Below are positions 4,528 through 45,414 of a stretch of DNA of 64,000 nt, piece after piece. Made by a program: the position numbers and the translations under genes. Numbering within the stretch: the first letter of the stretch is position 1; every line of letters begins with the position of its first letter. A model generated the notes under the pieces. That model ran no database searches. It was not told where the DNA came from and saw only the letters and a program-made list of their open reading frames with translations. Source of the DNA: Azospirillum thermophilum (GTDB taxonomy: Bacteria; Pseudomonadota; Alphaproteobacteria; Azospirillales; Azospirillaceae); assembly GCF_003130795.1 (NCBI RefSeq), contig NZ_CP029352.1, positions 970,001 to 1,034,000 of the forward strand, written 5' to 3'.

Positions 4528-5597
4528 CGCCCGGTCTCCTCCGGCGCCAGCATGTCCCAGCGCAACGGCTCGCCGCGGCGCAGCGGCCGGGCGGCGCGGC
4601 GCCCCAGAACGGCCGGGAGATGCTTGGGTTCAAGGCCGAAGCCGGGCCGGATGGAGCGGACATTGCCCACCGTCAGCGGTTCCCCCGCCGCGATATCGGC
4701 TGTCACGTAGAGTGAGCGGCGGTAGGAACGGCCGCCCGCCTCGCTCGGCTCGACGCCGTAATGGACGCGCCCCAGCGCCGCCCAGGCGGTCCGCGCCGCC
4801 TCGGCCATCGCCTTGAACTCCGCCGGCTCCAGGGAGAAGGCGCTGTCGACCCCGCCGTCGGCGCGGGACAGGGTGAAGTGCTTCTCGATGATCGTCGCCC
4901 CCTGCGCCACCGCCGCCACCGGAACCGCAACGCCATGGGTGTGATCAGACAGGCCGGTGGTGACGCCGAACGCCTCCGCCAGATGGGGAATGGTGCGCAG
5001 GTTGCACTCCTCCGGCGGGGTCGGGTAGCCGCTGACGCAATGGAGAAGGGCGAGCGGGACGTCACCCGCCGCCTCCACCCCCTCGGCGATTTCGCCCAGC
5101 GTGGCAAGGCCGGTGGAGAGGATCAGCGGCCTGCCCGAGCGGGCGGCGCGGCGGATCAGCGGCAGGTCGATCAGCTCGAAGGACGCGATCTTGAAGGCCG
5201 GCGCGTCGAGCTCCTCCAGCAGGGCCACCGCCGTCTCGTCGAAGGGGGAGCTGAAGATGGCGAGACCGAGTTCACGGGCGCGCGCGAACAGCGGCGCGTG
5301 CCAGTCCCAGGGAGTATGCGCCTCGCGATAGAGGTCGTGCAGGGTGCGGCCGGCCCACAGCCCTCCCTCCAGCCGGAAACCCGGGCCGTCATGGTCGATG
5401 GTGATGGTGTCGGCGGTGTAGGTCTGCAGCTTCACCGCATCCGCCCCCGCCTCCTTCGCCGCCTCCACCAGCGCGAGCGCCCGCGACAGGTCGCCATTGT
5501 GGTTGCCCGACAGCTCGGCGATCAGGTAGGGCGGGTGGCCGGGGCCGATGGGACGGCCGGCGATCTCGAGGGCGGCGGGCTGGGACACGGGATGCAC
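4524..5597 (-). CDS. pseI: Pseudaminic acid synthase
   Basis: 357 residues. An N-terminal NeuB-type TIM barrel holds the PseI-like block IAELSGNHNGDLSRA, then KLQTYTADTI, STGLATL and SDHTHG. A C-terminal SAF/antifreeze-like domain runs from about residue 295 (SLYVTADIAAGEPLT). It condenses the 2,4-diacetamido-hexose released by PseG with phosphoenolpyruvate to give pseudaminic acid. The GTG start at 5597 has AAGGAG just upstream. The GNHNG block favours PseI over LegI or sialic acid synthase, and pseG nearby agrees. PseB, PseC and PseH were not found in the window. Confidence 0.9.
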   Translation of the reverse strand: MHPVSQPAALEIAGRPIGPGHPPYLIAELSGNHNGDLSRALALVEAAKEAGADAVKLQTYTADTITIDHDGPGFRLEGGLWAGRTLHDLYREAHTPWDWHAPLFARARELGLAIFSSPFDETAVALLEELDAPAFKIASFELIDLPLIRRAARSGRPLILSTGLATLGEIAEGVEAAGDVPLALLHCVSGYPTPPEECNLRTIPHLAEAFGVTTGLSDHTHGVAVPVAAVAQGATIIEKHFTLSRADGGVDSAFSLEPAEFKAMAEAARTAWAALGRVHYGVEPSEAGGRSYRRSLYVTADIAAGEPLTVGNVRSIRPGFGLEPKHLPAVLGRRAARPLRRGEPLRWDMLAPEETGR

Positions 5598-41447: not shown

Positions 41448-41936
41448 TCAGTCTCGCATTTGCTTCTTATAGAGAGCGTCGATGGCCTCGCGGACCGGCG
41501 CGGGAAGGCGCGCCGGGCGTCCGGCCTGGTTGATCATCACCAGCTGCAGATCCGCCCGCGCGAGGTCGCGGCCGTCACGGCGAACGGTTTGTGCAACTGC
41601 GAAGGAAGCACCGCCGGTATCGGTGATCCGTGTCTCCACTTCAAGCGTGTCTTCCAGCCGGGCGGGAGCGACAAAATCGATCGTCAGCCGACGTACCGCA
41701 AATGACACACCCGAGGCACCGGCGAGGCCGCCGTGCGTCAGGCCGAGAAGCCGCAGCATCTCGCTGCGCGCCCGCTCGACGAAGCGCAGATAGTTGGCGT
41801 GATAGACGATGCCGCCGGCATCGGTGTCCTCGTAATAGACCCGCAGCGGGAACCGGTGCGTGCCGTCGTCGGCGAACCAGCCGGAAAGCTGCAGCGGGCC
41901 GGCCGGCCGGTACGGGGCCGTGGACGGTTCACTCAT
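41448..41936 (-). CDS. ybgC: Tol-Pal associated acyl-CoA thioesterase
   Basis: 162 residues with a single hot-dog fold. [27 protein letters not shown], quoted here only as the key Asp-Thr-Asp-Ala and Tyr-His-Ala-Asn elements, is the signature of the 4-hydroxybenzoyl-CoA thioesterase/YbgC family. It hydrolyses short acyl-CoA or acyl-ACP. Its start overlaps the end of ruvB by 8 bp, linking the ruv and tol groups in one transcription unit. Confidence 0.93.
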
Positions 41937-43029
41937 CGTCCGCCCCGTCGATCGGCTCGTCGCCCGCGGCGGGCCGGCCGCCGGCCCTGTCCAGCAGGTC
42001 GAGCTGCCGGGCCGCGGCGGCCGGCGGATTGATGCCGAGGTAGCGGAACCCCTGGTCGGTCAGCATGCGTCCGCGCGGCGTGCGCTGCAGGAAGCCCTGC
42101 TGGATCAGGTAGGGCTCGACCACCTCCTCGATCACGTCGCGCTGCTCGCCCAGCGCGGCACCCAGCGTCTCGACGCCGACCGGTCCGCCGCCGTAATTGG
42201 CCGCGATCAGGCCGAGATAGCGGCGGTCCATGCTGTCGAGCCCCAGCCGGTCGACCTCCAGCCGGGTCAGCGCGGCGTCGGCGACGCGCTTGTCGACCTC
42301 CGGCACGCCGGCCACCGCGGCAAAGTCGCGCACCCGGCGCAGCAGGCGGCCGGCGACGCGCGGCGTGCCGCGCGACCGGTTGGCCACCTCCCGCGCGCCC
42401 TCCGGCGTAATGCCCATGCCCAGCACGCCGGCGGCGCGGCGCACGATCAGTTCCAGCTCGTCCGGCTCGTAGAACTGCAGGCGGACGGGAATGCCGAAGC
42501 GTTCGCGCAGGGGGCGCGTGATCAGGCCGCTGCGCGTGGTCGCGCCGACCAGCGTGAAGGGCGGCAGGTCGATGCGGATCGAGCGCGCCGACGGCCCTTC
42601 GCCAATGATGAGGTCGAGCTGGAAATCCTCCATGGCGGGATACAACACCTCCTCTACGGCGGGATTGAGGCGGTGAATCTCGTCGATGAAGAGAACGTCG
42701 TGCGGCTGCAGGTTGGTCAGCAGCGCGGCGAGGTCGCCGGCCCGCGCGATGACCGGGCCGGAGGTGGCACGGAACCCGACGCCGAGCTCGCGCGCCACGA
42801 TCTGGGCGAGCGTCGTCTTGCCCAGCCCCGGCGGACCGAACAGCAGGACATGGTCCAGCGCCTCGCCGCGGGCGCGGGCGGCCTGGATGAAGATCGACAG
42901 GTTCTCGCGCGCCTGCCGCTGCCCGATGAATTCGGCCAGCGACAGCGGACGGATGGAGGACTCGGCGGAATCGCCGCTGCCCTGGCCCGGCTGCACCAGA
43001 CGGTCCGGGTTGGAGGGACCGGAGGTCAT
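41929..43029 (-). CDS. ruvB: Holliday junction branch migration ATPase RuvB
   Basis: 366 residues. The Walker A motif [12 protein letters not shown] is at about 67-78, Walker B is LFIDEIHRL, sensor 1 lies in GATTRSG, and a C-terminal winged helix ends with [10 protein letters not shown] and the FRYLGI element. It drives branch migration with RuvA. It overlaps ruvA by 4 bp. The last 30 residues are an acidic, unconserved tail. Confidence 0.96.
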
Positions 43030-43655
43030 TGGCTAAGCTCCTTGAGGCCCTGACGGATCAGGTCCGAAACGCTGGCGTCCTCCCCCAGGGTCCGTCCGGC
43101 GGCCACGACGGCGCTGAAGGCCTCCGACCGCCCGTAGCCGAGATTGACCAGCGCCGACACCGCGTCGCCCAGCGCCGGGGTCGCCCCCGGAACGGCCGGC
43201 ACCGGCCCGCCCTTGCCGGCCGCCGGCGTCGCGGCGGCGGCCCCGCCGAGCATCAGGTTGCCCACCTTGTCCTTCAGCTCGTTCAGGATGCGCGCCGCCA
43301 CCTTCGGTCCGACGCCGTCGGCGCGGATCAGCGCGGTCTTGTCCTGCGAGGCGATGGCGCGGGTGAGCTGGTCGGGGTCGAGCACGCCGAGGATCGACAG
43401 CGCCAGCCGCGCCCCCACCCCCTGGATGGTGGTCAGCAGCCGGAACCACTCCCGCTCGCCCTGGTCGGCGAAGCCGTGCAGGACAATGCGCTCCTCGCGG
43501 ACGAAGGTCTCGACCACAAGCGAGACGCGCTCGCCGGCGGCGAGACGCGACAGGGTGCGGTTCGAGCAGGACAGCAGGTAGCCGACCCCGTTCACGTCCA
43601 GGATGACCCAGTCGCTGCCGGTGGAATCCACGATGCCCGTGAGCTTGGCGATCAT
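43026..43655 (-). CDS. ruvA: Holliday junction DNA-binding protein RuvA
   Basis: 209 residues in three domains: OB fold ([18 protein letters not shown]), tandem helix-hairpin-helix ([27 protein letters not shown]), a Gly/Ala/Pro linker, and the C-terminal RuvB-binding helices ([13 protein letters not shown]). It begins directly after the ruvC stop and overlaps ruvB by 4 bp. Confidence 0.95.
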
Positions 43656-44645
43656 TCAGAGAACATCCTTGCCGGACGGCTGGCTGCGCAGGACGGCGGT
43701 TTCGGTCAGACGGGCTTTGATCGTTTCCAAAACGCCGTCGAGATTGTCGATGATGTCGGTATTCCAGAAGCGCAGAACCCGGAACCCTGCCTGCTCCAGG
43801 ACGCGGGTCCGGCGCTCGTCCTGCCCGGCCCGCTGCTCGGCGGGCCGGCCGCCGTCGAGTTCGACGATCAGCCGGTGGTCGTGCGAGACGAAATCGGCGA
43901 CGAACCCCAGGATCGGCTCCTGCCGCCGGAACCTGGCGCCGAGCTGGCCGTTGCGCAACTTCTGCCAGACGATCTTTTCCGCGTCGGCCGTGGTCCGCCG
44001 CACTGTCCCGGCGCGCCCCGCATCCGGGTCGGCGGGTCCGCGATCCGCCTGCCGCGCCGGCCCGGGGATGCCCTGCGCCGGCACGGCGGGGCCGGGCGGG
44101 GTCCTCCGCCACATCAGCCAGCTCGCCCGGTGGTGGGCATGGCAGATCGCCACGGCGAGCGCGTCGGCGGCGTCGGGGGTGCCGATCTCGCAGCCGGGCA
44201 GCAGCATGCGGACCATCGTCTGCACCTGCGCCTTGTCGGCCCGGCCCTGCCCGACCACCGCCTTCTTCACCATGTTGTTGGCATATTCGGCCACCGGCAG
44301 CCCGGCCTGGGCCGGGACCAGCAGGGCCACCGCCCGCGCCTGTCCCAGCTTCAGCGTGGAGACGGCGTTGGTGTTCACGAAGGTCTCCTCCACCGCCGCC
44401 TCGTCCGGGCGGTAGCGGTCGAGCACGGCGGTCAGGGCGTCGTGGAGCTGGCAGAGACGCTGGGCCAGCGGGCAGGCGTCGTCGGAGTGGACGGCCCCGT
44501 CGGCGACGTGACTCAGCCGGTTGCCGGCCACGTCGATGATGCCCCAGCCGGTGTGGCGCAGGCCGGGGTCGATCCCCAGGAGCCGGACCGGAGGCTGCGT
44601 CGCCCCGGCTCGCCCCGCACCGTTCCGTCCGGCCGGCCCGAGCAC
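43656..44645 (-). CDS. ruvC: RuvC resolvase fused to a C-terminal DUF559 nuclease-like domain
   Basis: 329 residues, about twice the usual 160-190. Residues 20-178 are a complete RuvC with catalytic Asp26 (GIDPG), Glu86 (VEETF), Asp158 and Asp161 (PDAADALA). A Pro/Ala-rich linker (about 181-213) leads to a DUF559 domain (about 214-312). This has [17 protein letters not shown], Asp251 in VADF, Glu262 and Asp264 in VELDGG, and [11 protein letters not shown]. The PD-(D/E)XK-like acidic residues are kept, but the His usual after ELDGGQ is Pro. The GTG start follows AGAAGG. It resolves Holliday junctions; the role of the extra domain is unknown. Confidence 0.9.
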
Positions 44646-44661: not shown

Positions 44662-45414
44662 TTACGCGGTCAGCTTCTGCATCAGCTCGTCCGGGATGTC
44701 GAAGTTGCCCTCGACCGTCTGGACGTCGTCGTTGTCCTCCAGCACGTCCAGCAGCTTCAGCAGGCTGGCGGCGGCATCCTCGCCGGGGGTGACCGTGTTC
44801 AGCGGCTTCCAGGTCAGCCGGGCGCTCTCCGGCGCGCCGAACTTGGCCTCCAGCGCGTCGCGGACGGCGCCGAAGCCTTCCACGGTGGTGGTGACCTCGT
44901 GGCCTTCCTCGTCCGACTCAACATTGTCCGCGCCGGCTTCCAGCGCGGTCTCGAACATCGCGTCGGCGTCCGCCGCGGCGGCCGGATAGTAGATCGCGCC
45001 GACCCGGTTGAACATGAAGCTGACCGAGTTCGTCTCGCCCAGGCTGCCGCCGTACTTGGTGAAGCTGGAGCGCACTTCCGAGGCGGTGCGGTTGCGGTTG
45101 TCGGTCAGCGCCTCGACGATCAGCGCGACGCCGCCGGGGCCGTAGCCCTCGTACCGCACCTCTTCATAGTTCGCGTCGTCGCCGCCGCCGGGCGTGCCCT
45201 GCTTGATCGCCCGCTCGATCCGGTCGCGCGGCATGTTCTGTGCCCGGGCCGCGAGGATGGCCGCGCGCAGCCGCGGGTTGGCCGCCGGGTCGGGCAGGCC
45301 GCCCTTCGCCGCGACGGTGATCTCGCGGGCGAGCTTGTTGAAGATCTTGGACCGCTTGGCGTCCTGCGCGCCCTTGCGGTGCATGATGTTCTTGAACTGG
45401 GAATGACCGGCCAT
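44662..45414 (-). CDS. yebC: YebC/PmpR family regulator
   Basis: 250 residues with the invariant YebC start [21 protein letters not shown], given here as a landmark up to its first residues, then [32 protein letters not shown] and the acidic C-terminal block. The family includes DNA-binding regulators, and some members help ribosomes through proline stretches. yebC directly before ruvC is conserved across proteobacteria. It lies 16 bp upstream of ruvC. Confidence 0.94.

Follow-up and report, generated by a model that had tools for sequence, protein, structure and literature searches.

The stretch of DNA described here, 64,000 nucleotides (64 kb) of Azospirillum thermophilum (contig NZ_CP029352.1, positions 970,001 to 1,034,000) and termed the window in what follows, carries a ruvC gene that runs on in frame, through a linker, into a second nuclease-fold domain, DUF559. 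In most relatives the linker is translated from repeat DNA of the intrastrand-triplex type, and repeats of this type also flank DUF559 genes that have no RuvC. Our reading is that an ordinary RuvC resolvase gene probably absorbed a repeat-associated DUF559 nuclease unit. The features of the locus, numbered by window position, are the following.

43656..44645, minus strand: ruvC-DUF559 fusion gene, 329 amino acids, GTG start, TGA stop (open reading frame list, Pfam)
44130..44585, minus strand: RuvC resolvase domain, residues 21-172 (Pfam, residue conservation, Foldseek)
44016..44129, minus strand: linker, residues 173-210, with no recognisable repeat in the window copy
43707..44015, minus strand: DUF559 domain, residues 211-313, of EDxHD/Vsr-like nuclease fold
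43842..43847, minus strand: Arg267-Pro268, replacing the conserved Gln-His of the nuclease motif (alignment rows)
43026..43655, minus strand: ruvA, immediately downstream of the fusion gene (open reading frame list)
41929..43029, minus strand: ruvB (open reading frame list)
44662..45414, minus strand: YebC-family gene, upstream neighbour of the fusion gene (open reading frame list)

The last three genes are named from their sequences.

Architecture and spread of the fusion

Two Pfam families cover the protein: PF02075 (RuvC) on residues 23-169 (E 8.3e-45; 152.8 bits against a curated cut-off of 22.2) and PF04480 (DUF559) on residues 211-313 (E 2.8e-31, far above its curated cut-off). The HUH Y1 transposase domain (PF01797) is not among the Pfam matches. 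The protein passes the RuvC model TIGR00228 (149.3 bits, cut-off 100.65) and stays under the cut-off of NF000711 (148.6 bits against 163). In Foldseek the RuvC part matches the solved RuvC 7xhj_A with a template-modelling score (TMt) of 0.90. The acids D26, E86, D158 and D161, which we take to be D7, E66, D138 and D141 of E. coli RuvC, are all present; in an alignment of the window protein with 113 homologues, restricted to proteins of at least 280 amino acids, D26 is found in 112 of 114 rows (two gaps) and each of the others in 114 of 114. The TGA of the fusion gene directly abuts the ruvA start. In domain, acids, fold and ruvC-ruvA-ruvB gene order the protein is thus like other RuvC resolvases (PF02075, TIGR00228), to which it adds the linker and, C-terminally, a second domain of nuclease fold. 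An initial annotation, made from the sequence alone, had described an intact RuvC with four catalytic acids, in frame with a DUF559 domain keeping D251, E262 and D264; the Pfam match and the alignment bear out the former, and the three DUF559 residues are present in the same single minus-strand frame.

The DUF559 domain is of the same sequence family as E. coli YcjD and has a fold like those of NGO0050 of N. gonorrhoeae (3hrl), the homing endonuclease I-Bth0305I (3r3p) and Vsr (1cw0); I-Bth0305I is of the EDxHD type. Unlike these proteins, the window domain is fused to RuvC and has the His of its motif replaced by Pro.

RuvC and DUF559 share one frame in 31 of the 37 genomes of the genus, the window included. 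The linker is frameshifted in two (G019, G036), and three (G009, G031, G032) show no DUF559. In G006 (loci L018 and L032) undetermined bases fall exactly within the repeat linker; L032 shows an apparent rearrangement there, with ruvC and DUF559 seemingly 9 kb apart, probably through a scaffolding error. Both Pfam domains occur in 112 of the 120 best protein matches listed, the fused ones coming from Azospirillum, Stellaceae metagenome assemblies and 'Roseomonas genomospecies 6', among other sources. Across the 80 ruvC loci among the matches listed (titled records, nearly all Alphaproteobacteria, at least three of them stopping less than 600 bases past the end of ruvC) the fusion was found in two. 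It is characteristic of a few lineages and rare beyond them, which qualifies its description in the initial annotation as unusual within a normal ruvCAB order: the order is normal and the fusion rare outside these lineages, but in the genus it is the rule. The arrangement that the annotation had set against it, relatives with ruvC and a separate DUF559 gene, occurs rarely, in the frameshifted G019 and G036 and as a separate gene in the distant G046 (L037), where ruvC and ruvA are separated by a standalone DUF559 gene that has repeats on either side. G046 is an alphaproteobacterium of another family, and its unfused gene probably reached this junction independently.

Triplex-type repeats in the linker and around DUF559 genes

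In relatives the linker reads SPPGRGQGEG...SPSPRPSPRGGEGE as protein and CCCTCTCCC-loop-GGGAGAGGG-GGGTGAGGG as DNA, frequently in two copies in inverted order, and its length and sequence change with the repeat. The DNA recalls the intrastrand triplex motif (TM, earlier PIT), in which a pyrimidine arm, a purine arm and a third strand fold together (Holder et al. 2015, PMC4666352). We defined a triplex unit formally by 9-base arms: a pyrimidine arm, a complementary purine arm and a mirror-symmetric third strand. Most relatives' linkers, and most of the DUF559 flanks described below, fit this triplex-type definition; their likeness to the published motif is one of description. With L018 and L032 set aside for their undetermined bases, a unit was found in 23 of 33 ruvC-DUF559 linkers, the window counted, and a unit or its hairpin in 31; the window and L004 have neither. 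By the strict definition no triplex unit lies anywhere in the 64 kb of the window. A mirror repeat copy is also found 3′ of the DUF559 part in G050 (L028) and several genus members. In one linker (L016, in G020) two repeats are separated by a long Gly/Pro run, which may be an expansion or reflect misassembly of G-rich DNA.

Triplex-type repeats bracket DUF559 genes across the Pseudomonadota sampled. The loci were 40 of the standalone DUF559 genes in a close set of genomes; a class set of 80, drawn as a single listed match per genome from 80 of the 84 alphaproteobacterial genomes (E<1e-20) that remained, of which 79 were scored, one having no scorable flanks; and a phylum sample of 42, with 27 from outside Alphaproteobacteria and 15 from further Alphaproteobacteria. 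L249 and L256, duplicates of L173 and L184, were left out of pooled totals. A motif-free test compared the 220 bp upstream of each gene with the reverse complement of the downstream 220 bp (score at least 18). Matches were found at 45/79 loci of the class set, 26/40 of the close set, 13/27 from other classes and 6/15 from further Alphaproteobacteria (6/13 with duplicates removed), or 90/159 when pooled without duplicates; the same test 450 bp further out gave 0/74, 1/39, 0/27 and 0/15, respectively. With flank partners swapped between loci, 52/637 pairs matched in the class set and 41/315 in the close set. Neighbouring genes in the same loci had matching flanks in 1/211 cases, and that one gene ends at a DUF559 repeat.

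Formal triplex units lie within 220 bp of the DUF559 gene at 107/158 loci, as against 6/153 outer windows and 0/158 shuffles, and they sit at narrow distances from the gene. The third strand of the nearest unit faces the gene in 74/82 upstream and 65/75 downstream cases; where each side has a unit (50 loci), both units point inward at 41. This inward-pointing layout is that of terminal inverted repeats, or of repetitive extragenic palindromic (REP) sequences around a REP-associated tyrosine transposase (RAYT). Such flanks are found at DUF559 genes without any RuvC. Among the matches listed for G030 and G026, many of the dispersed repeats form close inverted pairs, resembling the REP doublets termed REPINs, and sometimes have a second small hairpin between head and stem.

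The REPtron, the REP/RAYT system, is the nearest concept to these units, as far as the portions of PMC3733652 and PMC8266576 consulted describe it. Both have short palindromes with a head motif that form inverted pairs, flank a nuclease gene and are dispersed in the genome; the REPtron uses an HUH tyrosine transposase and a GTAG tag, the DUF559 units an EDxHD/Vsr-type nuclease and a GGG-rich third strand, e.g. GGGTGAGGG. A nuclease gene between inverted, genome-dispersed palindromes describes the DUF559 class, not the window copy. Set against the triplex motif as described in the consulted parts of PMC4666352, our repeats are tied to a specific gene family, and the window's own linker now holds none.

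Repeat numbers track the presence of DUF559, both in two genome samples and in one further family, in comparisons that treat genomes as independent and ignore shared ancestry. Among alphaproteobacterial genomes, 51/91 of those with DUF559 (E<1e-20) and 21/276 of the others contain the pattern CCCYCWCCCYRACCCTCYCCC (odds ratio 15.5), and 1234 of its 1344 copies there are in DUF559-bearing genomes. In the remaining classes of the phylum, 25/31 DUF559 genomes contain it versus 10/170 others, the DUF559 genomes accounting for 672 of 780 copies. Reversed, CCCYCWCCCYRACCCTCYCCC gave zero matches both in the 367 alphaproteobacterial genomes and in the 328 genomes of the phylum sample. In family f180, of another class, at least nine copies of a related pattern are present in 11/12 DUF559 genomes versus 5/97, or 11/12 versus 5/56 once genomes up to 3 Mb are removed. 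A RAYT (Y1_Tnp) was considered as the driver of the repeats in this same family, being present in 9/16 repeat-rich genomes and 26/93 others (p 0.04), and was rejected when genomes above 3 Mb gave 9/16 versus 24/52 (p 0.57).

Within the genus, copies of CCCTCACCCN{1,31}CCCTCTCCC number 27-445 (median 102) in the 33 genomes keeping a ruvC-type DUF559, G013 and G026, where the fused DUF559 is the only one detected, having 39 and 60 repeat copies. The counts are 22 in G009, 13 in G031, 1 in G032 and 1 in G000, the window genome, which has 1 and 0 repeat copies by two patterns.

E. coli K-12 MG1655 carries a DUF559 gene of its own, ycjD, between fabI and sapF (YcjD versus PF04480: E 1.4e-49). A triplex-type motif lies ∼165 bp past its stop, and its last codons resemble, by eye, a degraded second motif; the 5′ side has an unrelated hairpin.

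L285:4706-4741 and about 4895-4923, E. coli K-12 MG1655: ycjD motif copies

The T-T-A loop and single mismatch of the motif fit the commonest E. coli type, again by the description in the consulted parts of PMC4666352. According to those parts, MG1655 has 23 copies, with five cases of inverted pairs, no mobility genes surround them, and the authors only speculate on their spread. With 23 copies per chromosome, any one gene would be expected to have a copy within 200 bp ∼0.4% of the time.

Best placed among the alternatives, at roughly one chance in six, is that DUF559 proteins act as Vsr-like nucleases in mismatch repair or against phage, and that repeats merely gather at their borders in variable intergenic regions. 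Such gathering agrees poorly with the near absence of matching flanks at neighbouring genes, with the inward orientation and narrow distances of the units, and with the excess of true flank pairs over swapped ones. It also sits badly with a repeat number that follows DUF559 and, in the family where this was compared among genomes above 3 Mb, does not follow Y1_Tnp.

Descent, selection and the state of the window copy

On the RuvC tree, G009, G031 and G032 each stand beside fused relatives, and their lack of DUF559 therefore looks like separate losses. On the DUF559 tree (144 rows, fetched by similarity to the fusion and biased in sampling accordingly) the Azospirillum-type, Stellaceae-like and third fused groups form one clade, with weak support (0.42) that becomes 0.82 once one standalone row is added. 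P0113, whose placement is poorly supported, and the unfused G046 gene fall outside this clade, and G050 (L028) stands beside standalone rows. These three placements run counter to a single fusion event, and the tree suggests at least three arrivals of DUF559 at the ruvC-ruvA junction.

Among relatives (33 ruvC-DUF559 rows minus the window) the ratio of non-synonymous to synonymous polymorphism (pN/pS) is 0.225 for DUF559 and 0.193 for RuvC; between the window and relatives it is 0.263 and 0.178. The 33 rows include L028, of another family, and the two frameshifted loci, and L018 was left out. Being under purifying selection, the fused DUF559 probably still does something in most relatives.

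The nuclease motif is damaged in the window. Position 268 is His in 145/147 ruvC-linked and 117/118 standalone DUF559 rows; the window and P0031 have Pro there, and a single standalone row has Tyr. P0002, at 93% identity the closest protein, retains Gln-His where the window has Arg267-Pro268, and for this reason the change looks recent, unless it is a sequencing error. The window domain also departs at conserved positions 213, 215, 218 and 220. The catalytic set of VsrA is E73, D102, D115, H119 and D124 in the parts of PMC12907096 consulted; by our own reading the equivalents are E223, D251, D264, position 268 and D276, and the window fails the set at 268. The initial annotation had the retained D251, E262 and D264 right and missed the damaged motif. 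The domain is probably a DUF559 by descent and not an active nuclease. With His268 lost, no repeat in the linker and 0-1 repeats in a genome where a whole-genome family search detected no DUF559 other than the fused copy, the captured nuclease of the window looks spent.

The initial annotation had also proposed that DUF559 might add a function to junction resolution. Co-option of this kind, with extra DNA binding or strand processing by DUF559 keeping the fusion in place, we consider unlikely, marginally more so than a mere gathering of repeats at gene borders. It would account for the one frame kept in 31/37 genus genomes, for the purifying selection on DUF559 and for nuclease residues near-invariant in the 147 ruvC-linked rows; hairpin repeats, moreover, can extrude cruciforms, which are RuvC substrates. 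The same purifying selection would also be expected if the nuclease serves the repeats, so selection does not decide for a benefit to RuvC. The remaining evidence leaves the proposal unsupported: linker length and sequence follow the repeat, the arrangement is broken in 5/37 genomes (two frameshifted between the halves, three without DUF559 beside fused relatives on the RuvC tree), the window strain has an intact RuvC although its DUF559 has lost the catalytic His, and DUF559 genes without RuvC are flanked by repeats of the same type.

Probable capture of a repeat-associated nuclease by ruvC

We put the probability that an ordinary RuvC resolvase gene absorbed a repeat-associated DUF559 nuclease unit between ruvC and ruvA at about 0.7. 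The unit would be a small EDxHD/Vsr-type endonuclease gene, mostly bracketed by inward-pointing triplex-type repeats. The nuclease would recognise the folded repeats that end its own unit and nick or cut there, and repair would then lose repeats or copy them, or the unit, to new sites, a spread in the manner of homing or, by analogy, of REP sequences mobilised by a RAYT. In an ancestor one such unit may have inserted between ruvC and ruvA, its left repeat, open in frame, being read through to give the Pro/Gly-rich linker. In most Azospirillum-type relatives the conserved fused nuclease probably still serves a repeat population; the window strain has apparently lost the catalytic His, the linker repeat and the genomic repeats, leaving most likely a working RuvC with a passenger domain. 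Cutting of triplex repeats by DUF559 is itself deduced from sequence.

A bolder version makes DUF559 proteins the missing dispersal enzymes of intrastrand-triplex repeats, the Azospirillum RuvC weld a protein that both recognises the repeat and resolves its cruciform or junction, and the window strain a natural knock-out whose repeats are gone; this we offer tentatively, at rather less than even odds. A sequencing or assembly artefact, in which the stop that divided ruvC from a distinct DUF559 gene was lost, can be set aside almost with certainty: the undetermined bases in the G006 linker would suit it, but nothing in the window does, and the same fusion in independent assemblies (31/37 genus genomes, and 112/120 best listed homologues from several sources) shows it to be real.

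Several observations weigh against capture of a repeat-associated unit. The link of DUF559 to repeats is one of sequence association throughout. The exact repeat pattern is missing from 40 of the 91 alphaproteobacterial DUF559 genomes, and at about one third of DUF559 loci the 220 bp on either side contain no formal triplex unit. Some genomes are rich in repeats with no DUF559 match (21 copies in G373, 17 in G449, 15 in G339, 12 in G075 and 27 in G552) or with a weak one only (45 in G619, 13 in G164). In the genus the low-repeat genomes are few, four in number; G006, with Gly at the Asp264 position of DUF559, still has 116 repeats; and the majority of the 33 genomes carry standalone DUF559 genes as well, so the fused copy is not singled out as the cause of their repeats. 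Purifying selection on the fused DUF559 approaches that on RuvC, which is unexpected for a pure passenger. Head type is weakly clustered on the DUF559 tree (11 changes versus 14.4 when shuffled, a value as low arising in 6/200 shuffles); covariation of head motif with DUF559 clade, tried as a further line of evidence, is weak, and the head is not an independent label because each third strand is a mirror image of the stem in the repeat to which it belongs. The motif beside ycjD fails the strict triplex definition by one arm mismatch.

G754 is a further repeat-rich genome without detected DUF559. For this genome and for G373, G339, G075, G449 and G552, recent loss of DUF559, a missed gene or another enzyme are all explanations. 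In the whole-genome DUF559 search only 2/14 named controls were positive, E. coli not among them; some genomes scored as free of DUF559 may have it, or the E. coli control strain may be without it.

What is new in the capture reading is how the fusion arose, as a repeat-associated nuclease taken up by ruvC; in the open-access literature, judged mostly on titles and the beginnings of abstracts, we found neither a RuvC-DUF559 fusion nor a link of DUF559 to repeats or triplexes. Repeat DNA, on this reading, can become a protein linker and weld a repeat-associated nuclease onto a housekeeping enzyme. The DUF559 nuclease becomes a candidate, open to testing, for the enzyme behind the spread of the triplex-type repeat, and with ycjD beside a motif the question of dispersal can be put to the test in E. 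coli K-12. If the candidate is right, a host resolvase, RuvC, would now be part of the life cycle of a repeat, a REP-like system would run on a nuclease of the homing-endonuclease type in place of an HUH transposase, and a large family still named as of 'unknown' function would gain one.
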